Shown here piece by piece: positions 63 to 37,714 of a stretch of DNA of 43,781 nt. Position 1 is the first letter of the stretch, and every line of letters starts with the position of its first letter. Origin of the DNA: a virus; the IMG/VR virus record IMGVR_UViG_3300024433_000013, positions 1 through 43,781 of that record. One strand, written 5' to 3'. The position numbers and the translations under genes are program-made. Under the pieces are notes generated by a model. The model was not told the DNA's origin. It did not search any database and saw only the letters and a program-made list of their open reading frames with translations.

Positions 63-90
63 TTGACTTTTAGAAATTATGTGGTATGCT
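63..90 (+). promoter_or_regulatory. Sigma70-type promoter on the plus strand
   Basis: A -35 box TTGACT (63-68) and a -10 box TATGCT (85-90) are separated by 16 bp, with an extended -10 TG. The predicted start, 7 nt after the -10 box, falls on the ATG at 97. The 15-mer ATGTGGTATGCTTTA around the -10 is identical to one in the minus-strand promoter at 37686-37714, so the two promoters are related. Confidence 0.7.
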
Positions 91-96
91 TTAGAT

Positions 97-231
97 ATGA
101 TAATTCTGTTAATCGCTAAATGGTTTTTCGGTGTCATCATTTCCTTTTTCGTTCTTCTACATATAAGATATTTTTTAGCAATATCAGCCTTTTTTACCCT
201 TGTTGCTGTTATCGCTCTCGTATTCTCCTAA
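97..231 (+). CDS. Small membrane protein, plus-strand moron gene
   Basis: A 44-residue, almost wholly hydrophobic protein starting MIILLIAKWFFGVIIS, with one or two membrane segments. It is one of only two convincing plus-strand genes. It has no Shine-Dalgarno site. The ATG coincides with the predicted transcription start of the promoter at 63-90, so the mRNA should be leaderless. Its last 23 bases overlap the 3' end of the convergent 822-codon gene. A private promoter on the opposite strand is the classic arrangement of a phage moron, a gene expressed independently of the lytic programme. A role in the host envelope or superinfection exclusion is only inference. Confidence 0.6.
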   Translation: MIILLIAKWFFGVIISFFVLLHIRYFLAISAFFTLVAVIALVFS

Positions 232-2677
232 TCTTTTCTAAAGTTTCTCTTTTAACTCTTTCCTTTTCTTCTCTGCTAATTCCCTTATGCCGGTAAGTCC
301 TTCTCATTTTTCGCAATGCTTCCTGAATGTCAGATTGTTTTTTATAACTTTCAAATCTAACTCCCTCTCTAACACTTACAGGTTGAATTTTTAATCCAGC
401 AAATATATCTAACATTACCTGCTCGGGGCTTCTAACTCTCCCTAAATAGTCCCCTCTTTTTTCTAATGAAGCCTTTAATTTTTCCCAAGAATAACCACCT
501 TTAATTCTTGGAAGTCCGGGAGCAAATGAAGGCATTGCCTGTCTATAAAGATATTCTGCTATTTTGAAGTTTCTTTCTTTGGCGGTATCTGTTTCCGAAT
601 AAATTTCTTTACCTCTAAAATCTCTATTGCTTTTTATCTCCGTAAAAGCCGTAAGGGCGGGATTGGTAATTAACCCTCTCATAATTCCTCTTTCGGCTAT
701 TTCAGGAGCCATACCAACTGGCAGAATGTATTCAAGGTTAAGATATTGTGTCCTTCCATATTCGTCTTTGGCAGGCATAAGGAGTTGTGTAGGCATACCG
801 GGGATTTTTGTCTTCATCCATTCAGGCATATACCTTCTTTCCCGTTCCATTTCTTCTTCAGTTAAACCTATCTGTTTAGCAGAGGCATTATTGAAAGCAT
901 TGGCAAAGGCATAGTATTTGTATAATTTTAGAGGATTATTAACGGCAGTTTCAGCAACCCGGGGAATTGCTTTGTAAGAAAATGTTACAAAAGGAGAGCC
1001 GAACCGCCTACCCCATTCAATAAACTTAGGTATTTTCTGATAATTGAAAAGCCATTTTTCGCCTTCTTTAGCTGCTAATGTAGCCCCAGCACCTTTAAGC
1101 CTCATATCAGTAAATTTTATCATCTTGGCAAGTTGTTCTTCAAACTGATAAGTTTCTCCTGCTTTTCTGAAAGGCACTTTTAATACATTCATTATTCTGG
1201 ACAAATGAGTATCCGCCGGAGTTAAATTGTAACTATTTAAAAATTGGCTTGCTTCTACTCTATAAAATTCTGTCCCTAATAATCCCTGTGCTTTTGCTTC
1301 TTGGTAAAATTTGCCTTTACTGGTATAGTCTCTGATTACACGGGGTAAAAGTTGCGCCTGCCTTAAATGGTTTACTCCACTCATATCTAATAACATTGTA
1401 TTGGACATTATGTTCCTTGCGTGGGTAGCAGGATTTAATACAACCTTGCCGAATTTCCACGCCGATAGAGCCTTATCATATATTTTTAATGCCTGACTTC
1501 TGGCCACTACAAGCCCATTTATATCGTTTCCTATTTCGGGAATTACCCATTTTCCTTTTAAAGCTCCCATAGAAACAGTATTAGGCATTTGAACCATACG
1601 GCCTGTAATGTTTGTATTTGCCGCCCAGTTGGGATTTCTGGCTACTGTATTAAATAATTCCGCATTAGCGGAAGTCGTGGCGAGTTCCCTAACTCTTATT
1701 GCGGTAGGCAAGGCTGGTTCCTTAATTACTTCTAATTTCTTTAACACACTTTCGCTTAAATTTTTGCGATGCTTAAGTCCAGCAAGCCTTAATCTTAAGG
1801 GTTTTCTTGGAAATCCTACTCCCCGTTCCAATAATCGAGGGGCAAACATTCGAGGCATATAACGACCTATATTTTCTTCAATAACTTTTGTGGCCTGCTT
1901 AGAAGGTATACCAGACTTGACTAATTCTTGAGACCATCTATCCATTATTGCTCTACCCTCTTTGGCAACAGCCTGATATTCCCTAAATTGAGGTTTGGCT
2001 AATAACTTTGGAGTTACTGCTACTTCACCTCTAAATAATCTTCCTACATATTTTTGTTGTGAAGGGCTTAATGTTTTACCTGCTCTTGTGGTAGAAAGCA
2101 CTTTCGCCACTTTAGTTGCTTCCTCTCCACCTAAAACTCTCTTTAATGTTGCTTTTTCTGCTGCCCTTGCGTAAGTTGGAGGCTGTTCATACCTATACTT
2201 AAAAGCCTTGCCTAATATTCTTTTAATAGGCATAGGAGTTATACGAGCAACATCTTTTGCTGCTAAACCTAATCCTTTACCAATAGCCCCAGCTGCTACA
2301 AGCCGAGAAGGTCTATACATAGATATAAGTTCGGAGGCTAAATAACGAGGAAACTCTTTATAGACAGGAAATCTTTTACCTCTTAATCCAGGAACCTCAA
2401 ATGCTACTTCTCGTTCTTTAGGTTCTATAAATCTTTGGAGTGCCTTAACACCTTTTTCTTCAAGTCCCAAAATACGAGAAGGAGTAGGCATATAAGGTTG
2501 GGCAATTCGGAGGGCCTTTTCTACTTTTGTTTCAGGACGCCATTCACCGCCTGCACCACCATATCTTCTTTCTGGCTGAAAGTCAATAGCAGGCTTTATT
2601 GGTTGAAAATCAATGGCAGGTTTCTCCGGCTGGAAATCAATTGTTGTAGTTTTTTCTGGTCTGAAATCAATCGCCAT
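209..2677 (-). CDS. Large probable internal virion / DNA-ejection protein (822 aa)
   Basis: The 822-residue protein starts with degenerate tandem repeats of the form IDFQPEKPA (residues about 3-37), then is basic and mostly helical, with Ala/Gly-rich stretches around 120-145 and a highly charged Lys/Arg C-terminus. Length, composition and position at the end of the head-tail operon, after two smaller helical proteins, fit the large ejection proteins of podoviruses. I see no lytic transglycosylase motif. The ATG overlaps the upstream stop region. The 3' end overlaps the plus-strand moron at 97-231. The role is inferred from position and size, not from a catalytic motif. Confidence 0.6.
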   Translation of the reverse strand: MAIDFRPEKTTTIDFQPEKPAIDFQPIKPAIDFQPERRYGGAGGEWRPETKVEKALRIAQPYMPTPSRILGLEEKGVKALQRFIEPKEREVAFEVPGLRGKRFPVYKEFPRYLASELISMYRPSRLVAAGAIGKGLGLAAKDVARITPMPIKRILGKAFKYRYEQPPTYARAAEKATLKRVLGGEEATKVAKVLSTTRAGKTLSPSQQKYVGRLFRGEVAVTPKLLAKPQFREYQAVAKEGRAIMDRWSQELVKSGIPSKQATKVIEENIGRYMPRMFAPRLLERGVGFPRKPLRLRLAGLKHRKNLSESVLKKLEVIKEPALPTAIRVRELATTSANAELFNTVARNPNWAANTNITGRMVQMPNTVSMGALKGKWVIPEIGNDINGLVVARSQALKIYDKALSAWKFGKVVLNPATHARNIMSNTMLLDMSGVNHLRQAQLLPRVIRDYTSKGKFYQEAKAQGLLGTEFYRVEASQFLNSYNLTPADTHLSRIMNVLKVPFRKAGETYQFEEQLAKMIKFTDMRLKGAGATLAAKEGEKWLFNYQKIPKFIEWGRRFGSPFVTFSYKAIPRVAETAVNNPLKLYKYYAFANAFNNASAKQIGLTEEEMERERRYMPEWMKTKIPGMPTQLLMPAKDEYGRTQYLNLEYILPVGMAPEIAERGIMRGLITNPALTAFTEIKSNRDFRGKEIYSETDTAKERNFKIAEYLYRQAMPSFAPGLPRIKGGYSWEKLKASLEKRGDYLGRVRSPEQVMLDIFAGLKIQPVSVREGVRFESYKKQSDIQEALRKMRRTYRHKGISREEKERVKRETLEKIRRIRER

Positions 2678-2678
2678 A

Positions 2679-3407
2679 TCATCTTACCTGTCTATAACCA
2701 GCTCTTAATGCTTCTTGTAATTGATTTGCCGGTATATTGCCTCGTTCTCCTTGAGGAGATATAACAGTTACCCTGCCTGTTTCTCTTACTCTGGGCATTG
2801 CTGGTCTTGCTTCTGGTTTTCCAGTATATCCATATTGGCCTAAATACTCTTGATAAATCTGGTTTCCTAAATTCTCATATTCTATTTTACTTTCTTCATC
2901 AAGACCTACCATATAGGAGCCACCTAAACGCCTAAATGCTTCATCAAAAGCCTCCTTTTGAAGTTGAAATTTTGTAGGTTTTTTTTCAACTTCACCTTTA
3001 ATTCCTATTTTAGCTCTTTCAAATTTTAACTGTTCTTCTCGTGTTTGGGGTTTCCAAGGTTTTAAACCAGTTTTTGCCCTTTCAAATTCCAACGCTTCTT
3101 CACGAGTTGTAGGTTGATATTTACCAGGGGTTCTCCTATATCCCTGTCCTCTTTCATACTGCGGTTGTCTTATGCCAAAACCCTCCATTATTTTCTGGCC
3201 AATTCCTTGAGGTGCTACTCTTTCTGGGGGGGCGAAGATTGTGCCTTCACTGGTAGGTGCTCTCTCAATTGTGCCCTCCATAACAGCCTTGAGGATTTCT
3301 CTTGCTCTTAATCTTTCTTCTTCTCTGACTGGTTCTTCTTCTAATCGCCGCCTTTCCCGAGCACCTTTGATACCTCCTAATATCCCTCTTAAAATTTCAT
3401 AGGCCAT
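2679..3407 (-). CDS. Charged helical protein, probable virion or ejection component
   Basis: Charged protein with a long Arg/Glu-rich helix at its N-terminus (about residues 10-45) and two near-duplicate segments around residues 105-135 of the type REEALEFERAKTGLK and REEQLKFERAKIGIK. ATG 3407 is preferred because AAGGAG lies about 9 nt upstream; the frame extends two codons further. It overlaps the stop of the preceding gene and is followed at once by the 822-codon gene, so it probably belongs with it. No family recognised. Confidence 0.65.
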   Translation of the reverse strand: MAYEILRGILGGIKGARERRRLEEEPVREEERLRAREILKAVMEGTIERAPTSEGTIFAPPERVAPQGIGQKIMEGFGIRQPQYERGQGYRRTPGKYQPTTREEALEFERAKTGLKPWKPQTREEQLKFERAKIGIKGEVEKKPTKFQLQKEAFDEAFRRLGGSYMVGLDEESKIEYENLGNQIYQEYLGQYGYTGKPEARPAMPRVRETGRVTVISPQGERGNIPANQLQEALRAGYRQVR

Positions 3408-3409
3408 CG

Positions 3410-4270
3410 TCAATATCTCCTTCCTGCTGCTCTGGCGGCCAAAGCCCTTGAGTATGGCGTTTGTTGTTGAAAAGTTGTGCCAGGTTTAACCATTCTACCT
3501 GCTGCAACAGCAGGAGCTGCAGCCCCACCAGTTGCTAAAGTTATTCCCAATTCTGCTAACATCCTGACCAATTCACCTTCTTCTGCACGCTTTTGTCTCT
3601 GTGCTTCTGCTCGTTGTGCAGCATATTCAGCCTCTGTAGTAGCAGCACCTACTCTACCTCTACCATAGGCCTCTTCCCCTGCTACTCCATAAGGAACACC
3701 ACCAGTAACACCGGCAACCTGACGGCTTCTTAATGCTTCGGATAGAATATTTTCTAAATCTTCATAGCGCATAGGCAATGCTCTTGCCTCTGTTCCGTAT
3801 GCCAAACCTCTTTCTATGTCTCTGGATACAGCCTCTGACCTTAAACCTGCCAAAGCAGGTTCAGCACCTTTCATATATTGTTGTGTACCCAAACCTCCGC
3901 CTTCAACTCCAGGGGGTGGAGCAATGCCCCTTGCTTTTAAGGCTCGCCATAAGGGTTCAGTAACTCCGGCTTCATAAGCGGGTAAGTCTCTCTGAAACTC
4001 AAGTCCAGGGGTTTCTACTCTCTCTTGCACTCTCCTTGCTACTGCCTGAGAAATCGGCCCGGCCTGTGTCATTAGAGTTTCCCCGGGCGTTACAGCTTTT
4101 TCCCTATACCGGCCAAGTCTGGCTGTTTCTTCGGCAGTAGGCTTGCCAACCTCAATTATTCTTCTCTCTGCTTCCCGTGCAGTAGCCCGTTCTCTTTCTC
4201 CCGCTGCCCGTTGTTCTCGTGCCTGTAGTCCTCTGGCCTCTGCTTCTTTAGTTTCGCGGCTCTTAGACAT
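3410..4270 (-). CDS. Ala/Arg/Glu-rich protein, probable virion or ejection component
   Basis: 286 residues. The N-terminal third is a highly charged coiled coil rich in Arg, Glu and Ala. The C-terminal part has a short Ala/Gly segment (about residues 240-262) that might interact with a membrane. First of three consecutive genes ending in the large ejection-like protein; all are probably internal virion proteins. An HNH endonuclease gene sits immediately upstream and separates it from the tail genes. No recognisable enzyme motif. Confidence 0.65.
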   Translation of the reverse strand: MSKSRETKEAEARGLQAREQRAAGERERATAREAERRIIEVGKPTAEETARLGRYREKAVTPGETLMTQAGPISQAVARRVQERVETPGLEFQRDLPAYEAGVTEPLWRALKARGIAPPPGVEGGGLGTQQYMKGAEPALAGLRSEAVSRDIERGLAYGTEARALPMRYEDLENILSEALRSRQVAGVTGGVPYGVAGEEAYGRGRVGAATTEAEYAAQRAEAQRQKRAEEGELVRMLAELGITLATGGAAAPAVAAGRMVKPGTTFQQQTPYSRALAARAAGRRY

Positions 4271-4276
4271 AGTTTT

Positions 4277-5065
4277 TCAGAGCTCCTCTATTAGCTTATT
4301 GTGTTTAACACTATTGCAAATTCTACAAGCAATAGCTAAATTTTCATATTTGTTTGTTCCTCCTCTTGAGAGAGGAATTATATGGTCAAGTGTATCTTTC
4401 CCAAAAATAATTGGTTCTAAACAAAGATAGCAAGTAAGAGTTTGAAACTCTTTTATATTGTCTTCATATACTTTTTGAATGGTTTCAATTGTTAACTCTC
4501 CTGCTTCTTTCTCGTTATATTTACGAAGCAATCTATGTTCTCTTTTAGTTAAAGGTTTTAAACCTCCGTATTTATAACTATATTTTTTACTTATACCTAA
4601 CCTATGATTATATTCCCTTCTGTAAACATTTCTTTCCTCTTTTGGTATATTCTGTTGGTATTTCTGGTTGTATTTCTTTTTATCTAAAGAAATCCCACCT
4701 TTCCAACCGTGATTTTTTTCGCCACTATTCAATTCTCTCAATAAATTAAGATGGTTTTCAGTCCTTTTATATTGCCCGCATAAACTTTTATGATGTTCGG
4801 TCATTTTGTATTTTTTGTGATTTTCCCGGTGTTTTTTTGTCCATTTATATCCTTTTTTAAATCTATGACCAATTTTATTTTCTTTTTTAAATCCGTATTT
4901 TTTGCCATTTTCACGCAATATCATTTTTTGCTCTTCGGTTCTTTTATAAACTCCACATTTACCTTTGCAATCTTGGCTATGTTTTATTTTATATTCTTTA
5001 GTCCCTTGACGTTGTCTTAATAAATCTTTATAATATTGTGTTCTTACATAAACACCTTTAGGCAC
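4277..5065 (-). CDS. Free-standing HNH homing endonuclease with NUMOD3-like repeats
   Basis: The C-terminus has an HNH/zinc module: CYLC (near residue 215), DHIIPLSRGGTNKYENL and CRICNSVKHNK. Before it lie repeated basic segments such as YKRTE, FKKGYKWT and NHGWKGG, typical of NUMOD3 DNA-binding modules. GTG 5065 is chosen because GGAGGAG lies 7 nt upstream, while an ATG at 5125 would overlap the upstream gene by 68 nt. The gene is wedged between the acetyltransferase-like gene and the ejection-protein genes, as expected for a mobile endonuclease. Confidence 0.85.
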   Translation of the reverse strand: MPKGVYVRTQYYKDLLRQRQGTKEYKIKHSQDCKGKCGVYKRTEEQKMILRENGKKYGFKKENKIGHRFKKGYKWTKKHRENHKKYKMTEHHKSLCGQYKRTENHLNLLRELNSGEKNHGWKGGISLDKKKYNQKYQQNIPKEERNVYRREYNHRLGISKKYSYKYGGLKPLTKREHRLLRKYNEKEAGELTIETIQKVYEDNIKEFQTLTCYLCLEPIIFGKDTLDHIIPLSRGGTNKYENLAIACRICNSVKHNKLIEEL

Positions 5066-5707: not shown

Positions 5708-5717
5708 CTTAAGCCTC

Positions 5718-8888: not shown

Positions 8889-8917
8889 TTGACTTCTAAT
8901 CAATTATATGCTATACT
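8889..8917 (+). promoter_or_regulatory. Sigma70-type promoter on the plus strand
   Basis: TTGACT (8889-8894), a 17-bp spacer, and TATACT (8912-8917) with an extended -10 TG. The start is predicted at about 8924, one base before the ATG at 8925. It fires away from the minus-strand tail operon. Confidence 0.75.
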
Positions 8918-8924: not shown

Positions 8925-9152
8925 ATGAAAAAATTACTTTGGTTAATACTAATTTTGTCTGTTTGTGGAAATTTTAGTTTTGCTGATGAAACTCCATTAC
9001 CAAACACAAGCACTTTAGAATACATTAAGCCAGAAGATTTATGGTTATTTTATAAAGCTGAAAATTATGTTTTACCTTCCAGAGATTATTGGAACAAATT
9101 TCCAGAAAATCCAAAAATACCTTCGGACATTCTACATATTCAACAATTTTAA
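8925..9152 (+). CDS. Small secreted protein, plus-strand moron gene
   Basis: 75 residues with a strong signal peptide (MKKLLWLILILSVCGNFSFA, then DETPLPN). The mature region of about 55 residues is rich in Trp, Tyr and Pro, with no known family. ATG 8925 is chosen over an in-frame ATG at 8889 because the promoter lies between them. No Shine-Dalgarno site is present and the mRNA should be leaderless. The 3' end overlaps the convergent gene at 9132-9461 by 21 nt, mirroring the other plus-strand moron. A periplasmic or surface role in the lysogen or infected cell is inference. Confidence 0.7.
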   Translation: MKKLLWLILILSVCGNFSFADETPLPNTSTLEYIKPEDLWLFYKAENYVLPSRDYWNKFPENPKIPSDILHIQQF

Positions 9153-22969: not shown

Positions 22970-22988
22970 TGGTATAATAAAACTTATG
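22970..22988 (+). promoter_or_regulatory. Possible plus-strand extended -10 promoter antisense to terS
   Basis: TGGTATAAT (extended -10, TATAAT at 22973-22978) is followed 7 nt later by ATG 22986, which opens only a 12-codon frame. The -35 (TTCCAT) is poor. A transcript from here would run antisense into the small terminase gene. Confidence 0.35.
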
Positions 22989-23827: not shown

Positions 23828-23856
23828 AATATACCATATAATTATATTTCTGTCAA
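23828..23856 (-). promoter_or_regulatory. Sigma70-type promoter for the packaging operon
   Basis: On the minus strand TTGACA (23856-23851), a 17-bp spacer and TATATT (23833-23828) with extended -10 TGG. The start is near 23821, giving a 50-nt AT-rich leader before ATG 23770. It could drive terS, terL and the head genes. Confidence 0.75.
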
Positions 23857-27163: not shown

Positions 27164-27913
27164 TTAATACTGAATTGCCAACAAAACCATTTTCTTTAAA
27201 ATAGTAAATTGCTCTTTAGTCATCTGGGTTTTTGCTGAACATTTTTCATATTGCAAAGTTTTGATTTCTTTATGTTGCCATTTTTCACAACCGCAAAAGA
27301 TATAATTCGGAGTTATGGAAATACAATATTGGAAAACTTGAATTGTTTTTAAAATGGTAATAATTTTGTCCCCAGAAACCCAAGCGTCCCCAGAAACCCG
27401 AGCGTTCCCAGAAACCTGGGCGTTCCCAGAAACCTGGGCGTTCCCAGAAACCCGAGCGTCCCCACAAACCCGAGCGTCCCCAGAAACCCAAGCGTCCCCA
27501 CAAACCCGAGCGTTCCCAGAAACCTGGGCGTTCCCAGAAACCTGGGCGTTCCCAGAAACCTGGGCGTTCCCAGAAACCTGGGCGTTCCCACAAACCCGAG
27601 CGTCCCCAGAAACCCAAGCGTTCCCAGAAACCCAAGCGTCCCCACAAACCCGAGCGTTCCCAGAAACCTGGGCGTTCCCAGAAACCTGGGCGTTCCCAGA
27701 AACCCGAGCGTCCCCACAAACCCGAGCGTTCCCAGAAACCTGGGCGTTCCCAGAAACCCGAGCAGTAACTTCTACCCTTGCAGTTTTTGCTACAAAGCCA
27801 CCAATACTGCCATCTGGATTTTTGTGTCTGGTATAAATTATCTTCTTATATTCTACTTGTCTTATTTTAATAGAAAGATTTTTAAATTCATCCCAATTAT
27901 TTATTTTCTTCAT
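27164..27913 (-). CDS. Hexapeptide-repeat (left-handed beta-helix) protein
   Basis: 249 residues. Residues about 55-187 are 22 nearly identical hexapeptides of the form A(R/Q/W)V(S/C)G(N/D), the pattern of left-handed parallel beta-helix proteins with three hexapeptides per coil, so about seven coils. The short N-terminal domain ends KTARVEVTARV and the last 60 residues are a separate Cys-containing cap. GGAG precedes the ATG. Many phage and bacterial genomes encode such proteins; the target is unknown. Its DNA is an 18-bp tandem array likely to vary in copy number. Confidence 0.75.
   Translation of the reverse strand: MKKINNWDEFKNLSIKIRQVEYKKIIYTRHKNPDGSIGGFVAKTARVEVTARVSGNAQVSGNARVCGDARVSGNAQVSGNAQVSGNARVCGDAWVSGNAWVSGDARVCGNAQVSGNAQVSGNAQVSGNAQVSGNARVCGDAWVSGDARVCGDARVSGNAQVSGNAQVSGNARVSGDAWVSGDKIITILKTIQVFQYCISITPNYIFCGCEKWQHKEIKTLQYEKCSAKTQMTKEQFTILKKMVLLAIQY
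27369..27767 (-). repeat. 18-bp tandem repeat array inside the beta-helix gene
   Basis: About 22 units of an 18-bp consensus (plus strand CCCAGAAACC-TGGGCGTT with variants at a few positions) encode the hexapeptides. Variation is limited to a handful of sites (R/Q/W, S/C, N/D codons), which indicates recent expansion or recombination between units. All frames stay open through it. Confidence 0.9.
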
Positions 27914-28250: not shown

Positions 28251-28751
28251 TTATCTAATCAAAAATTCAAATCCGCATTTAGGGCATAACCAAGGATGCC
28301 AATTTTTGCCTTCAACAAAAAGTTTAAGATTTTCAGGGCGGTTGTCATCCCTTATACCATTTTTATGATGGACTTTTTCAAATGGCTTAAGATAACGACC
28401 AAGTATTTTTTCCATAATCAATCTGTGTTCTGTTATATATCCCACACTATTACAAAAAGGATGTTCACGTTTAAGAATACGAATATAACCTTGGTCAGTT
28501 TTAAATCTTCCACCTTTCCAATTATTATTTTTTTCTCCAAAGACTCCTTTATTCCAAGCGATTTGACCTTTTTTAAATCCGTATATAGATTTATTTCCTT
28601 TTTGATAACCAAATGTCTTAATCCTATGTGCCTTTTTAATTGCTCTACCTAATCTTTTTTTATGCTTTAAAGAAAACTTCCTTTTTATATTGATTTTATG
28701 GCCTTTTTGAAAACCAAGTTTAGAGCCATCTTCATTTCTAAAACCTCGCAT
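28251..28751 (-). CDS. Free-standing HNH endonuclease
   Basis: 166 residues from ATG 28751, which has GGAGG 6 nt upstream. NUMOD-like basic repeats ([31 protein letters not shown]) precede NNWKGGRF and the HNH core [31 protein letters not shown]. The C-terminus has [11 protein letters not shown]. The frame stays open 50 codons further upstream but runs through the promoter. It follows a promoter with a structured leader. Confidence 0.85.
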
Positions 28752-28761: not shown

Positions 28762-28901
28762 AAAAAAAGAGGCGCAATTCGGTTCGTGATAGGAAAATGG
28801 TTTATTCTCCGTAACCTACTATGCGCCCTGTTCTTTAGGCATAAAAAATCCACTCCCCTATCACTACCTAATACTATATCAAATTTATTGGAGTTTGTCA
28901 A
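28762..28901 (-). promoter_or_regulatory. Promoter and structured leader upstream of the HNH gene
   Basis: Minus strand: TTGACA (28901-28896), 17-bp spacer, TATAGT (28878-28873) with extended -10 TG, then ATTAGGTA and a GTG at 28864-28862. GTGATAGG (28864-28857) is complementary to CCTATCAC (28793-28786) and GGCGCA (28827-28822) to TGCGCC (28776-28771), which is followed by TCTTTTTTT. The two pairings cross (order A-B-A'-B'). It resembles an attenuator or pseudoknot. Confidence 0.6.
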
Positions 28902-29644
28902 GACTTTTTTCCTATTTTCTTTATAAGATTTTGCAATTTCTCTTTGGGAATTAGCCCCTCTTTCTCAATTTGTTCTTTAGTTTTTGCTTGTTTCTGTATA
29001 AAATCTTCTGCCCTCCCCCAGTGCATTGCTTTAGGTTTCTTTTCAAGCATATTTAACCATTTCTCAAAGTTATCTATCTTATTTCTAACACCCAAACAAT
29101 AAATCAAATCCATAAACTTTGAACGGTCTTCCCAATCATCTTGAATGAAATTATCTATTGCTTTTTTTAATTCCTCTATTGTTTTGCCATTCTTATATCG
29201 CTTTTCAATAATAGCCTTGCGTTCAGATGTTAATTGAAGTTTCTGTTTGGTCTTTAAGAGAAAATAATCAAAAGTTTCTGTAACGAACTTCTTTCTTTTT
29301 TCTATTTCTTCTTCTACTTCTTTATCTATATCTACGCCACGCACTTTTTCATCTTCTGTATACAACATTATAAAGTTGTGTAACATCTTTAAAGTTAGAG
29401 AGATAGCACGCTTTTTAAAGTTAAATCCTTTTCTTGTTAAATATCTTTCATCTAAAGGTATTGGTTTCTTACTTTGTATCTCTAACATTATAAAGGCCAT
29501 AAATCGCCATTTGTCTATTTCTTCAAGCATTTCAAATTCAGGGTCTGCATTTATCATACTAAAATATGTTTTACACCAGATAAGATTACGGTCTTTGTAT
29601 GTCGGATGATACTTTTCAAGATTTTTTATATGCAAATAATCCAT
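28898..29644 (-). CDS. Phage replication protein (Phg_2220_C-like C-terminus)
   Basis: 248 residues. The C-terminal third has the pattern [34 protein letters not shown] and [13 protein letters not shown], typical of the conserved C-terminal domain of phage replisome organisers. The N-terminal half is helical and may bind the origin. The ATG overlaps the stop of a leader peptide (TAATG). Its 3' end contains the -35 of the HNH promoter. Confidence 0.65.
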
Positions 29645-29736
29645 TATCTACTCCAATAAAAGAGGGTAGCCTTCAGGCGACTAACAGAAGCACGGTTAAA
29701 TACTTCAAGCCATCCAACTACCCATTGTTTTGACAT
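29644..29736 (-). CDS. Leader peptide ORF ahead of the replication gene
   Basis: 30 residues starting MSKQWVVGWLEVFNRASVSR. It lies between a strong promoter and the replication gene and its stop overlaps that ATG, so its translation would couple to it. GGGAGG lies about 12 nt upstream. It could be a real small protein or a regulatory leader. GACTAAC/GTTAGTC (29760-29754 with 29685-29679) and GGGTAG/CTACCC (29723-29718 with 29669-29664) pair in crossing order. Confidence 0.5.
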   Translation of the reverse strand: MSKQWVVGWLEVFNRASVSRLKATLFYWSR

Positions 29737-29766
29737 AAAAAAACCCGCCTCCCGTTAGTCCCTTAT

Positions 29767-29795
29767 ATTCTACACCCCTTTGGTCTGTCTGTCAA
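29767..29795 (-). promoter_or_regulatory. Sigma70-type promoter for the replication gene
   Basis: TTGACA (29795-29790), a 17-bp spacer and TAGAAT (29772-29767) on the minus strand, close to consensus. Transcription would start near 29760 and include the leader ORF. Confidence 0.8.
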
Positions 29796-31156: not shown

Positions 31157-31190
31157 TATCCCCCGCTCCCCGAGCCAAGAAAGGGGGATA
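31157..31190 (-). other. GC-rich hairpin upstream of a small gene
   Basis: Minus strand TATCCCCC (31190-31183) pairs with GGGGGATA (31164-31157) around an 18-nt loop. It lies 14 nt before ATG 31143, and the A/G-rich sequence AAAGGA follows. No T-tract, so it is more likely a translational or processing element than a terminator. Confidence 0.5.
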
Positions 31191-31210
31191 GAAAGCCCGG
31201 GGATTGGCGG

Positions 31211-31898: not shown

Positions 31899-32770
31899 TA
31901 TTTATCCTTATTTAATTGGAATTTATGCCCGCATTTAGGACAAGTTACTTGATTTTTTAATAGCTCCGCAAGGCGTTCTTTCTCCTTGCGTTCGGCTTCC
32001 GCTTTGGCTTGTGCCGCCTTTTCTTTCCTAAGAGCATCTACCTCTGCTATTCTCTTGAGTCGTTCTGCTTTAGCCTTTTCTTTGGCGAGTTTCTTTTCCT
32101 GTGCTTCTTTTTCCTTGCGAGCTTTTTCCTCTATTGCTTTTTGTTTTGCTTCGGCTTCTTCTCGTTCAAGCCTTGCTTTTTCTTCTATAGCCTTGCGCTC
32201 TGCATCGGCTTTAGCTTTTTGCTCGGCAAGTTTGGCTTCTTGTTCTTTTCTTTCCCTAGCCATTTTACGTTCACGCACTTCGGCTTCCTTTTTAAGTCTT
32301 TCATTCTCAAGTTTAATGCGCTCCCTTTCTTCGGCTTCGGCTTTTTCCTTAGCAATCTGTTCTTCTTCCATACGCTTCTCAACCTCAAGGCGTTTGGCCT
32401 CTCGTTTTTGTTCTTCTTGTATCTCGATAAACTTTTCCTGATTACCAAGATATTCCTCAATAGGAACGATTAGAGCCTTCAAGACATTGGCTATTCCGTC
32501 AATAGCCTTGCCTTCCCTCAATGCCTGCTCTTTTAATTCTTTCCGGGCCTTCTCTATGGCAATTCGTTTTTCTCTTAGGAATAGTCGACCAGTGCGAGCC
32601 ATTTCCATCTCAGCTGTTTGAGTTTCGTTAGTAACTACAAGACTCTTAGCTTTAGTTTCCCATTCAGACGCAATTTCAAAGTAATTCTGGAATTTTTCAA
32701 GAATAACTTTTGCTTTCGTTGGTTCAAGGCCACTTTCTTTAACAATAACTTGTAACTGATTTTCTTTCAT
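31898..32770 (-). CDS. Coiled-coil protein with C-terminal zinc ribbon
   Basis: 290 residues. After a helical N-terminal domain (residues 1-105, DUF1351-like region) there is a very long charged coiled coil (about 110-275, Lys/Glu/Ala-rich), then CPKCGHKF near the end. GGGGG lies upstream of the ATG. It is nested between exonuclease and NinB genes and may be a partner of the recombinase. The antisense frames through it are low-complexity shadows. Confidence 0.65.
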   Translation of the reverse strand: MKENQLQVIVKESGLEPTKAKVILEKFQNYFEIASEWETKAKSLVVTNETQTAEMEMARTGRLFLREKRIAIEKARKELKEQALREGKAIDGIANVLKALIVPIEEYLGNQEKFIEIQEEQKREAKRLEVEKRMEEEQIAKEKAEAEERERIKLENERLKKEAEVRERKMARERKEQEAKLAEQKAKADAERKAIEEKARLEREEAEAKQKAIEEKARKEKEAQEKKLAKEKAKAERLKRIAEVDALRKEKAAQAKAEAERKEKERLAELLKNQVTCPKCGHKFQLNKDK

Positions 32771-32794
32771 AGTTACCCCCTTATTTTTTCAATA

Positions 32795-33385
32795 TCATTT
32801 TATTTTCTTTACTAATTCGGCGAGTTCCTTTGTAAAAATCTCAAGCTCTACTCTCAAGGCTTTGAGGAATACCTCATCCCTATTGACACGCATAATCAAA
32901 GGTTTGAGGCTTGGGTAATATGAGACGAAATCTACCCATTCCCTTTCGGTTACTAATAACTGCCCCTGCAACTGTTGGAAATACTCAACAGGCACAACAT
33001 TCTTGAGTAGGTATCCGACCTGGGTTGATATAATCGGGCATTTGAGTTCGACTAAGCCTTTATCCCCCACAAGCCCGTCCGGGCTACAGCCATATCCGTC
33101 AGCAAGACAGAACCCTACCTCTTTGACTTCCTGTCCGGTAACGAATTGATACATTTCCCGGGCAGAGGCTTCAAGTTCAATTCCCTGAAGCATCGCTGCG
33201 CTCTGGTAGGTTTCCTCGGCTACTCCAGCGATAACCTCTCCGGCTAATTTATATAGATATTTGATGCGTTGCTTTGAGGGCTTACCATCTGCGGTTATTA
33301 TTTTATCAAAATTGGAAGCCGAAGGTATTCCTACTTTGGCCGTAAACCATTCAGGCAAGTTCTGGATACACTCGATAATTTTCAT
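32795..33385 (-). CDS. YqaJ / lambda-exonuclease-like nuclease
   Basis: 196 residues. GIPSASNFDKIITADG, EASAREMYQFVTG, GCSPDGLVGDKGLVELKCP and YFQQLQGQLLVTERE give the PD-(D/E)xK catalytic core (D in SPDG, E and K in ELKCP, Q in the QLQGQL motif). A 5'-3' exonuclease that makes the 3' overhangs annealed by the ERF protein encoded just upstream. The ATG overlaps the ERF gene end. Confidence 0.85.
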   Translation of the reverse strand: MKIIECIQNLPEWFTAKVGIPSASNFDKIITADGKPSKQRIKYLYKLAGEVIAGVAEETYQSAAMLQGIELEASAREMYQFVTGQEVKEVGFCLADGYGCSPDGLVGDKGLVELKCPIISTQVGYLLKNVVPVEYFQQLQGQLLVTEREWVDFVSYYPSLKPLIMRVNRDEVFLKALRVELEIFTKELAELVKKIK

Positions 33386-34110
33386 TCCTTCACCTGTTTT
33401 TTCTTAAGCTCAAGGGCATTGATTGCCTTTTTGAAATCAGCCTTGAGGATCTTTTCTACGCTCTCGGCCTGCATATATGTAAGGAACAAAGCTCTGTCTG
33501 CTCCCGCTTCTGTGGCCAAATCCAGTATCTGCTTAATCTGTTTCTCATCAATGTATTCTACCGGCTTACCTGCTGCATTGCCGTCATCATCTTGGTCGTG
33601 GGTGGCTAAACCTGTTGCACACAGCAATGTATAGCGACACAAATATGAAATCGTGCTGCCTATGGCTTGGATGGCGTTCTTTGAACCAGATGTATCAGCC
33701 GGGGCCGAAAGGCTGGTCTGTTCGCTATGCCCCATTTCGTGGGTAATCTTGCAGGTTACGATAATCTGTCCGTTCTGCTGGGTCTGCCAAGAGGCAGAGA
33801 GGCCGTATTTGCTAAGCTCGGAGCTAATCTTCTCGGTTACATTGGCAAGAGTAGCGTGATGGTAACTGGTGGCCCCAACCGAGGTTTTAAAAGATACAAT
33901 TTTGTCCTTGTCTATCTTAGGCGGGTTAGCTTTGAAGGCGGCCATCGCCTTGTGATAGGCTTTCTTGGCCTCGTTTGCTTCCCACTTTTCCTGTAATGCA
34001 AGCAACTTCTCTAATTTCTCTAAATCAGCTCGGCCTTCAACCGCCCGCATAATCATATCAGCCGGAGAATTACCAGAGCTTGCTACTAATCCTTCTTTTT
34101 GCTTTTCCAT
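33382..34110 (-). CDS. ERF-family single-strand annealing protein
   Basis: About 242 residues. TSYHHATLANVTEKISSELS, GLSASWQTQQNG and the motif SYLCRYTLLCATGLATHDQD-DDGN are the ERF core. It anneals complementary single strands for recombination and genome circularisation. ATG 34110 is preceded by AAGGTG; a GTG at 34119 is also possible. It leads the recombination cassette with exonuclease, coiled coil and NinB. Confidence 0.85.
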   Translation of the reverse strand: MEKQKEGLVASSGNSPADMIMRAVEGRADLEKLEKLLALQEKWEANEAKKAYHKAMAAFKANPPKIDKDKIVSFKTSVGATSYHHATLANVTEKISSELSKYGLSASWQTQQNGQIIVTCKITHEMGHSEQTSLSAPADTSGSKNAIQAIGSTISYLCRYTLLCATGLATHDQDDDGNAAGKPVEYIDEKQIKQILDLATEAGADRALFLTYMQAESVEKILKADFKKAINALELKKKQVKE

Positions 34111-34115
34111 CGTCT

Positions 34116-34268
34116 TCACCTTATCCTTTCTGTTTCTAACCTCGTTATCTCATCCGCACAAAACTTCATCCGCTTTACCATATCTATTATTGACATCGGC
34201 TCTCGGTCTTGTTCCTCGCAGGCTTCTACTGCAAGGTCATCAAGTCGGCGGTCGTTATCGAAAATCAT
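34116..34268 (-). CDS. Small acidic protein
   Basis: 50 residues from ATG 34268, with GGAGGAGG upstream and a TGATG overlap with the repeat-protein stop; a 73-residue reading from further up is rejected. MIFDNDRRLDDLAVEACEEQ onward. Unknown. Confidence 0.55.
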   Translation of the reverse strand: MIFDNDRRLDDLAVEACEEQDREPMSIIDMVKRMKFCADEITRLETERIR

Positions 34269-34606
34269 CAAACACCTCCTCCTATTAAATCCTCTATCTT
34301 TATGCCTTTTTTGCGTTCTTCCTCCGTTATCTCGCATAAATCTATGTCGCCCCAGATACCGCTGACGTCGCCCCTGATATTGCTGACGTCGCCTGTGATA
34401 CCGCTGACCTTGCCTGTGATATTGCTGACATCGCCTGTGATACCGTTGACGTCGCCCCAGATACCGCTGACGTCGCCCCTGATATTGCTGACGTCGCCTG
34501 TGATACCGCTGACGTTGCCTGTGATTTTATCGTGCACGCCAGTTATTTTCTTGCCATCCCTATAGTAATATAATTCTTTTTTTATTCTCTTTAGTTCACG
34601 TTTCAT
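34268..34606 (-). CDS. Heptapeptide-repeat GDVSGI protein
   Basis: 112 residues from ATG 34606 (GGAGGTG upstream). After a basic helix (MKRELKRIKKELYYYRDGKK) come about ten heptads of the form GDVSGIT, GDVSNIR, GDVSGIW. The regular Ile and Asp pattern suggests a beta-helix or solenoid. It ends with a charged tail. Similar repeats are widespread in phages, of unknown function. With the hexapeptide protein this is the second solenoid-like repeat protein in the genome. Confidence 0.7.
   Translation of the reverse strand: MKRELKRIKKELYYYRDGKKITGVHDKITGNVSGITGDVSNIRGDVSGIWGDVNGITGDVSNITGKVSGITGDVSNIRGDVSGIWGDIDLCEITEEERKKGIKIEDLIGGGV
34345..34525 (-). repeat. 21-bp tandem repeats in the GDVSGI gene
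   Basis: About eight to nine imperfect 21-bp units (plus strand GATACCGCTGACGTCGCC type) encode the heptapeptides. Units differ at a few positions only (CAG/CTG, ATA/ATT), indicating in-gene duplication. Confidence 0.8.
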
Positions 34607-34695
34607 ACTGCACCTCCGTTTTTGTCTGTGATAATCGGCGCAATCGCCATACTCCCGTAGAGAACAAATGTAATTATGGTAATCAATGCGGCCAT
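34603..34695 (-). CDS. Small membrane peptide
   Basis: 30 residues, MAALITIITFVLYGSMAIAP then a polar end. AAGGTGG upstream; start overlaps the previous stop (TAATG) and its stop overlaps the repeat-protein ATG. Translation is likely. Confidence 0.5.
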   Translation of the reverse strand: MAALITIITFVLYGSMAIAPIITDKNGGAV

Positions 34696-35084
34696 TATTT
34701 ACCACCTTCCGCTTTGATGATGGCTTGTTGTCTTTCTGTGCGATACCAAGACTTGTAAGTGTTATAGAATTGTTCCAAAGTTTCCGTTTTTAATTTAATA
34801 GGAGCAGTTCGTAACGCTTCATAACAATCAGGTGCGGAAGCGATAAGGCGGGCGTTACCGTCTGGATTTCCCTTGCGGATGTCTTTGCTAATATGACAAA
34901 CAATATCGAAAGCAATGCCTATCTTTGAATGTGGAATGGTAACAGCTGTTTGCCCAAGTGTTTCGGTTACTTCCCACGGCCCTGAAGTATATTGAGGCAC
35001 CAATGAGCAATTTCCACAAATGCCTTCAATTAAATCTGTCTCTATATTGCATACTTTACATATACCTGTATAAGTATCAGCCAT
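34695..35084 (-). CDS. Phage early-region protein with zinc ribbon
   Basis: 129 residues. Two Cys pairs near the N-terminus (CKVCNIE, CGNCS) suggest a zinc ribbon. GPWEVTE and GNPDGNARLIASAPDCYEAL follow the pattern of a common phage protein of unknown function (ARLIAAAPEL type). GGAGG lies just before the ATG. It is the gene after the structured element at 35107-35177. Confidence 0.6.
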   Translation of the reverse strand: MADTYTGICKVCNIETDLIEGICGNCSLVPQYTSGPWEVTETLGQTAVTIPHSKIGIAFDIVCHISKDIRKGNPDGNARLIASAPDCYEALRTAPIKLKTETLEQFYNTYKSWYRTERQQAIIKAEGGK

Positions 35085-35214
35085 CGCTTGCCTCCTTTAT
35101 ATAATCGCACAGGCAAAAAAAGACCGATATTAAAAAATATCGGCTCTCCCGCTTTTCAGCGCTTCCTTTGCCCGTGCTTATTTTTTGACTTTTATGGGAG
35201 ACTTTGTTAGACAT
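35077..35214 (-). CDS. Doubtful ORF reading through the RNA element
   Basis: 45 residues starting MSNKVSHKSQKISTGKGSAE. ATG 35214 follows the RHH stop directly (TAAATG) with AAGGA upstream, but the frame reads through the hairpin and ends inside the next gene. It may be fortuitous. Confidence 0.3.
   Translation of the reverse strand: MSNKVSHKSQKISTGKGSAEKRESRYFLISVFFCLCDYIKEASDG
35107..35177 (-). ncRNA. Structured RNA element with three stems and a terminator
   Basis: Minus strand: an outer 11-bp stem GCACGGGCAAA (35177-35167) with TTTGCCTGTGC (35117-35107), one pair being G-U, valid only in the minus-strand RNA. Inside are CGCT-GAAA-AGCG with a GNRA loop, and CCGATATT-TTTT-AATATCGG (35143-35124) followed by TCTTTTTTT. 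It looks like a three-way junction containing an intrinsic terminator between the repressor gene and the next operon. Confidence 0.6.
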
Positions 35215-35346
35215 TTAGGTTTTCCTTTTTAAATACAAATCAAAACTTGCTTGAATAATTGCTGTCATTGGCCTGTCTTCTTTTTTGGATAAAGCCTTTA
35301 ATCTTTTGTAAGTTTCTTCTCGTATTTTAATTGTTCTTTGTTTCAT
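35215..35346 (-). CDS. Ribbon-helix-helix (CopG/Arc-like) repressor, leaderless
   Basis: 43 residues. MKQRTIKIREETYKRLKALS supplies the DNA-contact strand and the first helix, and DRPMTAIIQASFDLYLKRKT the second; this is the minimal RHH fold, which works as a dimer. The ATG coincides with the predicted transcription start of the promoter at 35353-35381, so the mRNA is leaderless with no Shine-Dalgarno site. A terminator lies about 100 nt after its stop. It is the best candidate for a regulator of the early promoters. Confidence 0.8.
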   Translation of the reverse strand: MKQRTIKIREETYKRLKALSKKEDRPMTAIIQASFDLYLKRKT

Positions 35347-35352
35347 AATTGG

Positions 35353-35381
35353 AGTATATCACATTACTATGATGTTGTCAA
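35353..35381 (-). promoter_or_regulatory. Sigma70-type promoter for the RHH gene
   Basis: TTGACA (35381-35376), 17-bp spacer, TATACT (35358-35353) with extended -10 TG on the minus strand. The expected start at 35346 is the A of the ATG. Confidence 0.8.
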
Positions 35382-35439
35382 GTAGTTTTTTATCTTTTTT
35401 TTCTCAAGCGTTCAATAAATGAACACGATAGGCGACAAA

Positions 35440-35817
35440 TCACACTAATACCAACTTTAAGGCAGGATAATTATATTCAAACATCTTTTGCTTGAGTAAA
35501 AAAACCCTGTTTTTCTTGAAGCCTTTAACATCTTCTATTGTTATTCTTTTTTTCATAAAGTCAAAATATTGAAAATCAGCAACATAATAAATTGGCCGAT
35601 ATTTAACATTATCTTTTTCAAAGCCTTCTTGGAGTAAAAAACGGGGTTGTAACTCTAATCCTCTTATATTCCCATTTTTCTGGAGTAATTTTAAAGTTTG
35701 ATACCTGCGGGCTTCTTTGCGGGAGGCAAATCTATGGTCGTCTATAATAACTGACTTATTATAATATTTACTGCGGGTAGGTTTATTAAGATAATCTATT
35801 GGCATATCTCTTGGCAT
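35440..35817 (-). CDS. DUF1064 family protein (predicted nuclease)
   Basis: 125 residues. KYYNKSVIIDDHRFASRKEARRY, ELQPRFLL, YYVADFQYF and ITIEDVKGF follow the DUF1064 pattern (N+ .. F.S+.EA+RY .. QP .. ADF .. EDVKG), a predicted PD-(D/E)xK-like phage nuclease. Start 35817 or 35805 (both Met). It overlaps the small zinc gene upstream by 32 nt. Confidence 0.75.
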   Translation of the reverse strand: MPRDMPIDYLNKPTRSKYYNKSVIIDDHRFASRKEARRYQTLKLLQKNGNIRGLELQPRFLLQEGFEKDNVKYRPIYYVADFQYFDFMKKRITIEDVKGFKKNRVFLLKQKMFEYNYPALKLVLV

Positions 35818-35944
35818 ACTTTTCGTTCTGTTTCTTCCTTAAACACTCATCACAGTATCGTTTTTTCGGGCCAGCGTGTCCATTTCTGTGGTAATGCTCA
35901 AATTTTTGACCACAATTTTGGCAAATAAGAAGTTGCTTTGTCAT
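35786..35944 (-). CDS. Small four-Cys zinc protein
   Basis: 52 residues. CQNCGQKFEHYHRNGHAG and CDECLRKKQ form a zinc-binding site. It starts MTKQLLIC and overlaps the DUF1064 gene. Small zinc proteins in phage early regions are common; role unknown. Confidence 0.6.
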   Translation of the reverse strand: MTKQLLICQNCGQKFEHYHRNGHAGPKKRYCDECLRKKQNEKYAKRYANRLS

Positions 35945-35998
35945 AATCCGCCTTTGGGGGCCGACAGGAAATATCAGCCGACCCCCGTTAAACTTAAG

Positions 35999-36283
35999 TC
36001 AGAATTCTAAACCAGCATCTATCCTATGTATCCTTACATTATCATCTTTACCCAATTTCCCGGGAGAATACTTTATCCTCAAGTTCTTGGGAATAATGGG
36101 AATACTGCCAATTTTAAAAGTATCTTTGGTAGTATAGGCAACATAAGGATGAAGTTCTACATTATCCTTACGACCAGACATAATGTCACCAAATTCATCC
36201 AGGAGATTTGTTCCTTCGGCAAACACCGGCAAAGATATGGCCATTATCCCTGCCAAGCAAATTAGACTAATAAATCTTATCAT
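35999..36283 (-). CDS. Secreted small protein
   Basis: 94 residues with a signal peptide (ending SLPVFA). The mature part is beta-rich and Lys-containing (PYVAYTTKDTFKIG, PIIPKNLRIKYS) and ends in Phe (AGLEF), as outer-membrane strand proteins do. No clear family. It is in the early region, not the virion cluster, so it may modify the envelope. Confidence 0.6.
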   Translation of the reverse strand: MIRFISLICLAGIMAISLPVFAEGTNLLDEFGDIMSGRKDNVELHPYVAYTTKDTFKIGSIPIIPKNLRIKYSPGKLGKDDNVRIHRIDAGLEF

Positions 36284-36286
36284 TTT

Positions 36287-36484
36287 CTATTTCACCTCCT
36301 TTGGTATTTCGGTTTCTATGGTCATAAAACCAAGACCTGTTTGCTCATCTGGGCTTGAAAATAGAGCAAAGCCCTTATTCTCTCCTTTTTCAAGTGCAGT
36401 AATTATAGGAGCTAACCACTCTTCTTCAAATTTACTCTCACAGCGAATTGTAAGAGCATTATGTTTTAGCATTATTGCTTTCAT
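36287..36484 (-). CDS. Small protein, unknown
   Basis: 65 residues, MKAIMLKHNALTIRCESKFE onward. A mixed alpha/beta protein. Its start overlaps the RNase H stop. Its Shine-Dalgarno is GAGGTG. No family. Confidence 0.55.
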   Translation of the reverse strand: MKAIMLKHNALTIRCESKFEEEWLAPIITALEKGENKGFALFSSPDEQTGLGFMTIETEIPKEVK

Positions 36485-36930
36485 ACTTTCACCTCCTCTG
36501 GTTGGATTTTAAATCTTACTTTCATATTTCGCAAAACATCTTTAGCCAACTTATCGCAAATTTCGTTTTCTTCTCTTGGTATCCATTGGCCATCAATTTT
36601 TTTAAAATTCTCTAATAATTTTTTTGCTTTATATGCAAAAGGAAGATACAATCCTTTTCGAATTTGCCAATATCCAAACATCTGTTCAATTACTAATTTG
36701 CTATCACCTTTAATAATAATACTCTTTTTATTCAGTTTCTTTTTTTTAAGGATTTTTAAAATATGGATAAAACCACTATATTCAGCAACATTGTTACTAA
36801 TACCTTTTCCGTGGCCTACAAACACCCCTTCTTTCAATATCTCTTGACTATTGACAATATATATCCCATATGCGGCATAACCACAAGGATTGATAGGCTC
36901 ACAAACTCCGTCAAAATAGGCTTTAATCAT
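36481..36930 (-). CDS. RNase H-like protein
   Basis: 149 residues in the RNase HI fold: the first strand with Asp (KAYFDGVCEPINPCGYAAYG), Glu in NNVAEYSGF, Asp in IKGDSKLV, and Asp in NEICDKLAKDVL, so the four metal-binding acids are present. It could remove RNA primers or RNA in hybrids during phage replication. It lies after an HNH gene in the early region. Confidence 0.8.
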   Translation of the reverse strand: MIKAYFDGVCEPINPCGYAAYGIYIVNSQEILKEGVFVGHGKGISNNVAEYSGFIHILKILKKKKLNKKSIIIKGDSKLVIEQMFGYWQIRKGLYLPFAYKAKKLLENFKKIDGQWIPREENEICDKLAKDVLRNMKVRFKIQPEEVKV

Positions 36931-36936
36931 TTAAAG

Positions 36937-37257
36937 TCAACTGCACCTCTCTATAAATCTACTAAGAATTTGATAAATTTTTTCTTCACTATATCCTCTT
37001 TTATATAACTCTTTCTCTATTTTTTTAAATATACCTGCCAAAATTCTGGTATCTTTATATTGTTGAGCAGTAATCTTTTTATGACATTTTTTGCAAAGAG
37101 TTTGTAAATTTGCCCAACCACTAAATCCACCACAAGCAATAGGTATTTTATGATGAACTTCTAATTCTTTATTTATTCCACAAAATTCGCATAATTTATG
37201 ATATTTTAAGAATACTTTTCTTACTCGACTTCTATAATTATAATTTTTATATTTCAT
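36937..37257 (-). CDS. HNH endonuclease
   Basis: 106 residues. CEFCG, LEVHHKIPIACGGFSGWANL and CKKCHKKI give a classical zinc-HNH core; the C-terminal 45 residues are helical. ATG 37257 lies one base after the stop of a leader ORF. There is a promoter, then a terminator-type hairpin, before it, so expression may be attenuated. Confidence 0.85.
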   Translation of the reverse strand: MKYKNYNYRSRVRKVFLKYHKLCEFCGINKELEVHHKIPIACGGFSGWANLQTLCKKCHKKITAQQYKDTRILAGIFKKIEKELYKRGYSEEKIYQILSRFIERCS

Positions 37258-37258
37258 T

Positions 37259-37339
37259 TTAAATAAAAAAGGCAGAAGAACCGACTAAGGAAACTTCTGC
37301 CCGTGAACGTCCACCAAATTCTTTAGCCGGTTTTTTCAT
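37259..37339 (-). CDS. Leader ORF upstream of the HNH gene, leaderless start
   Basis: 26 residues, MKKPAKEFGGRSRAEVSLVG onward. The ATG lies 8 nt after the -10 box, so it would be at the mRNA 5' end. It covers the hairpin. Stop and next ATG are one base apart. May be a regulatory peptide or no protein. Confidence 0.45.
   Translation of the reverse strand: MKKPAKEFGGRSRAEVSLVGSSAFFI
37264..37302 (-). terminator. Terminator in the HNH leader
   Basis: GGCAGAAG (37301-37294) pairs with CTTCTGCC (37278-37271), followed by TTTTTT. A competing 10-bp pairing, AACCGGCTAA with TTAGTCGGTT, uses the loop; the two cross (A-B-A'-B'). Confidence 0.65.
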
Positions 37340-37347
37340 TGCCCTAA

Positions 37348-37376
37348 ATTATACATTATAAGAAAAGTTTTGTCAA
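37348..37376 (-). promoter_or_regulatory. Sigma70-type promoter for the HNH leader
   Basis: TTGACA (37376-37371), 17-bp spacer, TATAAT (37353-37348): near-perfect consensus. The start is predicted at 37341, two bases before the leader ATG. Confidence 0.85.
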
Positions 37377-37388
37377 GCAAATTATTTT

Positions 37389-37514
37389 TTATCTAACAAA
37401 CGGCATATAAAGAACTTTTGCCCGATTAGATAATTTCTGCCACTCTGGGTCTTTCAGTAAGTCTTTCCTCACCATTACAAAAGGTGAAGGCGATTTGGGT
37501 TTTTTTCTTCCCAT
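37389..37514 (-). pseudogene. Truncated replication-initiator-like N-terminus
   Basis: 41 residues. PFVMVRKDLLKDPEWQKLSN and RAKVLY are the start of the winged-helix domain of phage replication initiators (FV.V..DLL.SP.W..L.P.AK.LY), but the frame ends just after. No continuation is found downstream. It is probably a remnant left when the HNH unit inserted, or a very short regulator. Confidence 0.55.
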
Positions 37515-37541
37515 AGATGTTTATAAAAAATGAGCCCAGCC

Positions 37542-37652
37542 TCAAGCGACCATATTTCTATGGCTGGTGTCTCGTTCTCTACCCCAAATCAAAGTAGAAA
37601 ATAAGGCTCGAAACTGGGCGATTATATAAAATAAAAAAAGATTTGGTTTCAT
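37542..37652 (-). CDS. Short ORF in the leader RNA after the 37.7 kb promoter
   Basis: 36 residues (MKPNLFLFYIIAQFRALFST and a basic end) overlapped in another frame by a GTG ORF of 32 residues at 37579-37677. The GTG (37677) sits 8 nt after the -10 box, in the context TTAAGGTAGTGA also found after the 28.9 kb promoter. Which, if either, is translated is unclear. Stems such as TTTCTATG/CATAGAAA and CCAGCC/GGCTGG followed by TTTTTT surround them. Confidence 0.35.
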   Translation of the reverse strand: MKPNLFLFYIIAQFRALFSTLIWGRERDTSHRNMVA

Positions 37653-37685
37653 AGAAAGACACCCTTTCTTTTTTCACTACCTTAA

Positions 37686-37714
37686 AGCATACCACATCTT
37701 TTATCCAAAGTCAA
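37686..37714 (-). promoter_or_regulatory. Sigma70-type promoter, near 37.7 kb
   Basis: TTGACT (37714-37709), 17-bp spacer, TATGCT (37691-37686), extended -10. The 15-mer ATGTGGTATGCTTTA is identical to the moron promoter at 63-90. Confidence 0.75.

Follow-up and report, generated by a model that had tools for sequence, protein, structure and literature searches.

Leaderless phage repressor messages, with lambda cI as the type, are a known kind of transcript. Attenuators of the trp type comprise a promoter, a leader ORF, RNA structures that compete as nested hairpins, a U-tract and the controlled gene, and type III toxin-antitoxin loci consist of tandem pseudoknot repeats, a terminator and a gene for a ToxN-like toxin. 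A pseudoknot motif repeated two or three times has been described as STAXI (PMC2864571). RNA control of phage homing endonucleases is already known from T4-like phages, where RNA structures at I-TevI, mobE and segB sequester the ribosome site of the gene itself (PMC3014915).

The DNA compared here with these systems is a 43.8-kb tailed-phage record (the window, i.e. the whole stretch that was analysed), with 39.6% G+C and nearly all genes on the minus strand, that encodes an N4-like terminase and an Erf/RecE recombination cassette. An earlier note had described seven promoters with an ATG or GTG 6–8 nt behind the -10 box and had attributed them to a single regulon of leaderless genes. The spacing signal is genuine but mixes two different things. 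Our best explanation, which we hold to be rather probable as a whole, reads transcription starts from the -10 boxes, sorts the sites into transcription units of two kinds, both under host-sigma70-type promoters, instead of one regulon, and joins promoter, leader and mostly stand-alone endonuclease into one cassette at the type-I RNA leaders described below.

Most genes of the window do possess Shine-Dalgarno (SD) sites, as the earlier note had stated, and six of its seven promoters have the -35/-10 pairs described. The seventh, a claimed promoter at 22973..22978 (+), was rejected, being an extended -10 only: the place of the -35 reads TTCCAT and the site is absent among the hits listed in two promoter scans. 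The leaderless gene proposed behind it was likewise rejected, as ATG 22986 opens a frame of just 12 codons after a promoter without a -35. An extended -10 TG is present in six of the seven promoters, since the one at 37348, a 12/12 match to the consensus, is without it. The word TTA(A/G)GG(T/C)A(A/G)TGA, which three sites were thought to share, has only two exact occurrences (37336-37347 and 37674-37685), with no more than a shifted variant at 28873 (ATTAGGTAGTGA). A single regulon does not emerge from it, as the word sits at promoters of RNA leaders and not at leaderless genes. Two further strong promoters, at 29795 and 23856, both on the minus strand, were not on the earlier list; the latter (23828-23856), with an extended -10, is followed by a leader rich in A/T, and then by a gene for 92 aa that lacks an SD. 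A search of viral contigs with the promoter word TGTGGTAT(A/G)CTTTA led to no phage that could be recognised as related.

Start codons were counted by their offset behind 70 distinct strong promoters of the window and its relatives, the expectation being taken from neighbouring offsets. An ATG or GTG occurs 6–8 nt after the -10 in 18 cases, where about 4.5 are expected (six each at 6, 7 and 8 nt vs about 1.5 nearby), and for frames of at least 25 codons the count is 13 against about 1.1 (5, 5 and 3 at the three offsets vs about 0.4). Control phages showed no clear excess at 6–8 nt, with 2 observed and 0.9 expected among only 17 promoters. Some of the 18 start codons belong to pseudoknot leaders. 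The remaining genes in relatives include a ribbon-helix-helix (RHH) gene at 6 nt (L067), two Cro-like genes (L099 and L124) and genes for a zinc ribbon (L093) and a membrane-type protein (L081), while the RHH gene of L057 also has a second, SD-led ATG and is thus not a clean leaderless case. The spacing is kept in relatives for the promoters as a group only, but not for the type-I pseudoknot leaders, where just 3 of 11 copies have an ATG or GTG at this distance.

Where the -10 lies 6–8 nt ahead of the start codon of a gene, a message without a leader is predicted, and in this first kind of unit (35346, 8925 and probably 97) such messages would encode a regulator and membrane or secreted proteins, all of them small. 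That 35346 and 8925 start leaderless messages, with candidate 5' ends read from the -10 boxes, is well supported, and for 97 it is plausible; the same claim is doubtful for 37339 and unsupported for 28864, 37677 and 22986. The promoter TTGACA-17-TATACT with TG (35353..35381, -) would start transcription at, or directly beside, ATG 35346, which is the first codon of a 43-aa ribbon-helix-helix (Arc-like) regulator (35215..35346, -) upstream of the Erf/RecE genes; this protein matches Pfam RHH_1 just under the cut-off as well as an Arc-like repressor in PHROG. The distance from -10 to ATG is 6–7 nt, and the sole SD-like word, GTGA, lies 12 nt upstream, within the promoter. Behind the gene, the segment 35090-35214 (-) contains a terminator hairpin (CCGATATT..AATATCGG, T-rich thereafter), enclosed by an outer helix (GCACGGGCAAA:TTTGCCTGTGC), and a 45-codon frame that overlaps the next gene.

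The other two promoters of this kind came up in the promoter scan and lie on the plus strand. TTGACT-17-TATACT with TG (8889..8917) precedes a gene that opposes the operon direction and encodes a 75-aa protein with a signal-peptide-like N-terminus (8925..9152, +); the distance from -10 to ATG is again 6–7 nt, and an SD word of at least four letters is absent. TTGACT-16-TATGCT with TG (63..90), which has a 14-base word (spacer end and -10) in common with the promoter at 37714, lies at the same 6–7 nt from the ATG of a candidate leaderless gene for a 44-aa hydrophobic (membrane-type) protein (97..231, +). A family search with the latter protein gave no match, relatives of the 8925 protein were found only in a near-identical contig, and diverged relatives were found for neither. 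The near-identical contig (L003/L005/L020) was too similar to inform on conservation; in comparison with it, the copies of a G+C-rich tandem repeat in the gene at 27164-27913 (-), which has collagen-like tail matches, yield many offset self-alignments.

In the second kind of unit, the region behind the promoter has the topology of a pseudoknot. The strands of the elements behind the promoters at 37714, 28901, 29795 and 37376, and of one from the relative L015, follow in the order H1 5', H2 5', H1 3', H2 3' and U-tract, and 13–19 nt separate their U-tracts from the next start codon, the distance being 13–17 nt in the four leaders of the window. Of 300 dinucleotide-shuffled versions of each of these five elements, one at most formed an equally good U-tract-anchored pseudoknot. 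In a scan of the whole window, the pseudoknots behind the promoters at 37714, 28901 and 29795 rank as the three strongest, and a combined scan for promoter and pseudoknot in the window and its relatives gave 28 matches (including a few duplicates from overlapping records) against 1–4 in shuffled sequence, where no pseudoknot was stronger than -32.8 kcal/mol. When strands were swapped among 22 distinct elements, the native H1 was best in all 22 rows and the native H2 in 19.

Two of these elements, leaders A and B, are designated type I. Behind the promoter of A (TTGACA-17-TATAGT with TG, 28873..28901, -), the predicted RNA extends over 28762..28866 (-) with its U-tract at 28768-28762. H1 pairs 28864-28850 with 28800-28786, H2 pairs 28828-28822 with 28776-28770 and H3 pairs 28816-28813 with 28784-28781, and an internal loop is formed by AGUA (28820-28817) and GAA (28780-28778). 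The GTG at 28864, formerly taken for the start of a leaderless gene, is the first base of helix 1. A putative leader ORF (MPKEQGA, 28819..28842, -) has its start codon in the UUUUUUAUG loop and its stop just past the 5' strand of H2, and the SD (GGAGG) of the following HNH_3 endonuclease gene (28251..28751, -) comes immediately after the U-tract. Leader B has the promoter TTGACA-17-TAGAAT (29767..29795, -) and an RNA at 29657..29763 (-), with H1 at 29760-29749 and 29690-29679 and H2 at 29723-29716 and 29671-29664. Its leader ORF is 30 codons long and has its stop on the start codon that follows (TAATG), which belongs to a replication-type gene (28898..29644, -), an exception to the rule that endonucleases follow.

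Among relatives fetched through a RecE alignment, the type-I RNA, about 100 bases long, was recovered so that 11 distinct copies are available from 9 phages (A and B of the window, L015, L060, L061 and L147 from one phage, L066, L072, L077, L078 and L080). Loop sequences are conserved across copies and the helices differ, with changes on both sides at 19 of the 26 pairs in the three covarying helices H1, H2 and H3. In the alignment, which had been fitted to H2 and H3, 85.9% of the cells are paired vs 68.2% after shuffling, a level attained by none of 500 shuffles, and slid alignments used as controls reached 43–56%. Ten of the 11 copies have H3 with GUA/GAA as its internal loop, and leader B has a GGAU variant. 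AGUA/GAA is also the consensus for loop E, or the sarcin-ricin module, to which the internal loop bears a resemblance. Loop 1 reads UUUUUUAUG or a near variant with a purine-rich stretch ahead, the leader start codon (AUG or UUG) is at the same place in 10 of the copies and unclear in L077, and wherever it is clear the leader frame overlaps the 5' strand of H2. The type-I model also found L072 and L147, both outside its training set. On this comparative evidence, a type-I RNA family is well supported. Its copies all come from one set of Erf/RecE-bearing phages known from metagenomes alone, partly because relatives were sought that way. Rfam 15 contains no match at the gathering threshold, and low-threshold scans gave weak, unrelated matches or none. 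The model R2 found no copies in two sets of bacterial genomes, 200 and 149 in number and drawn from two phyla, which says little because these phyla need not include the host of the phage. BLAST of the elements against annotated phages returned nothing or short matches, probably to promoters, and a search of viral contigs with a core DNA pattern (GGGGAG...TTTTTTATG) recovered A and C as the only real elements, all other hits resembling ordinary gene starts or terminators.

Homing endonucleases are characterised by an HNH, PD-(D/E)XK or similar nuclease domain, and the genes that follow 9 of the 11 type-I copies match nuclease families; those represented are HNH_3, HNH_5, HNH, NUMOD3, DUF559 and phrog_2340-type endonucleases. 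The exceptions are leader B and L080, which is truncated where its contig stops. The promoter, RNA and endonuclease of L078 make up a block between two genes whose homologues in L066 adjoin without it, and the block is also missing from that place in the window. The SD of the downstream gene falls after the U-tract, outside the structure. A reading of the elements as partners of an RNA-guided nuclease was dropped, as the helices pair inside the element, where no unpaired stretch that might act as a guide was seen.

The same topology, without the type-I sequence motif, is seen in leaders of type II and in leader E, which may be unrelated to type I; the genes behind them are Erf, replication-type and HNH genes. 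Leader D of type II has its promoter at 37686..37714 (-) and its RNA at 37524..37683 (-), with H1 GGUGUCUU:GAGACACC and H2 GCCCAGUUUCGAGC:GCUUGAGGCUGGGC followed by the U-tract; over 37515-37680 its fold has z = -6.1 relative to shuffles. The next ORF, of 41 codons and apparently truncated (37389..37514, -), lies just before a block of promoter, RNA E and HNH gene, and may be a gene interrupted by the cassette. This block consists of the promoter at 37348..37376 (-), the compact RNA E at 37264..37345 (-; H1 AACCGGCUAAAGAA:UUCCUUAGUCGGUU, H2 GGCAGAAG:CUUCUGCC, U-tract), whose crossing helices could be alternative rather than simultaneous, and the endonuclease gene at 36937..37257 (-). ATG 37339 opens a leader frame of 26 codons that runs through RNA E and its terminator-like hairpin. 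Several of five type-II leaders (L060:386, L060:3713, L075:2630, L084:11545 and that at 37714 in the window) contain a second terminator-like hairpin in loop 1, and in the same five an early segment around the leader start codon could pair with the stretch that separates H1 3' from H2 3'. A helix sequestering the type-II start codon was given up as weakly supported, since 10–42 of 300 shuffles were as good in five elements. Pseudoknots at L014:1789-1948 and L078:7722 lie about 41–44 nt behind the -10 and have 43-codon leader frames beginning MKxxRP.

The mechanism that we favour is an attenuator opened by translation of the leader ORF, where the RNA, its termination and the role of translation are all deduced from the sequence. 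At 28873, 37686, 37348 and 29767, RNA synthesis would start about 7 nt after the -10, and the helices H1 and H2 of the product would interlock as a pseudoknot with the U-tract after H2. In type I, H1 would begin at or next to the 5' end of the RNA, H3 would stack behind H2 across the AGUA/GAA loop, and the purine-rich 5' strand of H1 would serve as the ribosome site of the leader ORF. With no ribosome on this ORF, H1 and H2 would form and RNA polymerase would stop at the U-tract; a ribosome translating it would open both helices, so that transcription reaches the gene. Established computationally are the promoters, the three covarying helices, the position before a gene and the association with endonucleases. 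In leader-peptide attenuators the leader ORF overlaps the terminator or its competitor, and here, in the copies with a clear start codon, it extends across the 5' strand of H2. Its translation is suggested by the start codon and the purine-rich H1, but each of these could be there for structural reasons instead, and classical terminators lack a loop as large as that within H2.

It is very improbable that every site is a leaderless gene of one regulon and the downstream folds are incidental. This would agree with the overall enrichment of start codons at 6–8 nt, but the frames at 28864 (9 codons), 22986 and 37677 (32 codons, with an alternative ATG at 37652) are unconvincing, the pseudoknots covary, and the few type-I copies with a start codon at that distance also speak against it. 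Nearly as improbable is a sole function of blocking translation of transcripts initiated upstream, with no role in termination. T4 I-TevI and Aeh1 mobE do use RNA structure against early translation (PMC3014915), but here the SD of the downstream gene is past the U-tract and outside the structure.

The elements might also be free-standing small RNAs acting in trans, with H2 and the U-tract as terminator and the gene read from upstream operon transcripts. An own strong promoter, a compact fold, a U-tract and variable helices would all suit such RNAs, and the genes do sit in co-directional operons. However, most elements stop just ahead of a start codon, in type I with an endonuclease gene in almost every case, and at a variable junction the promoter, the RNA and the gene behind it make up a single block; both features favour action in cis, and we think a trans-acting RNA unlikely. 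A somewhat better chance, though still a low one, is given to a switch in cis that is run by a ligand or protein, and not by the ribosome, at the loop-E-like AGUA/GAA or the U-rich loop 1. Conserved loops within variable helices speak for such a switch. Against it, 10 of 11 copies share the position of a start codon preceded by a purine-rich stretch, and there is neither a candidate ligand or protein nor an Rfam match. The attenuator opened by leader translation remains our preferred reading.

More tentatively, and with rather less than even confidence, we suggest that type I represents a new class of phage RNA, in which a promoter-proximal pseudoknot with a loop-E-like core senses translation of a very short leader ORF and gates transcription into stand-alone endonuclease genes, travelling with the nuclease as one mobile cassette, and that type II is related in architecture and acts before replication and recombination genes. 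If the favoured explanation is right, unrelated families of selfish endonucleases have one RNA control module in common, which would help to account for their establishment in genomes that they do not harm, and phages would offer a defined system for the coupling of ribosome and RNA polymerase. The case is also a warning: a start codon that lies a few bases behind a -10 box need not belong to a leaderless gene and may instead mark the first base of an RNA helix. Searches of Rfam and of open-access papers turned up no pseudoknot leader shared by unrelated nucleases, the absence from the papers being weak evidence.

Among the described systems, the lambda cI message resembles our first kind of unit in that a small DNA-binding regulator has its start codon at the 5' terminus of the message, right behind the promoter; the units described here differ in that the regulators are of the RHH or Cro-like type and belong to recombination operons in phages that are uncultured, with predicted starts. 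The second kind resembles trp-type attenuators in its sequence of promoter, short leader ORF, structures that a ribosome could disrupt, U-tract and gene, but has a pseudoknot in place of nested hairpins and leader peptides without a run of a single codon, and its mechanism is deduced. Type III toxin-antitoxin leaders also combine promoter, pseudoknot RNA, terminator and gene; in our elements there are no tandem repeats and no ToxN-like gene, and HNH, DUF559 and other endonucleases lie downstream. STAXI (PMC2864571) is likewise a pseudoknot RNA near genes for DNA-acting proteins, whereas the elements described here are single copies with a promoter and U-tract of their own. As in T4-like phages, an RNA structure precedes homing-type endonuclease genes; unlike there, the SD of the downstream gene comes after the U-tract and not inside a helix, and the structure is a promoter-proximal pseudoknot with H3 and a U-tract that ends before the SD of the gene.
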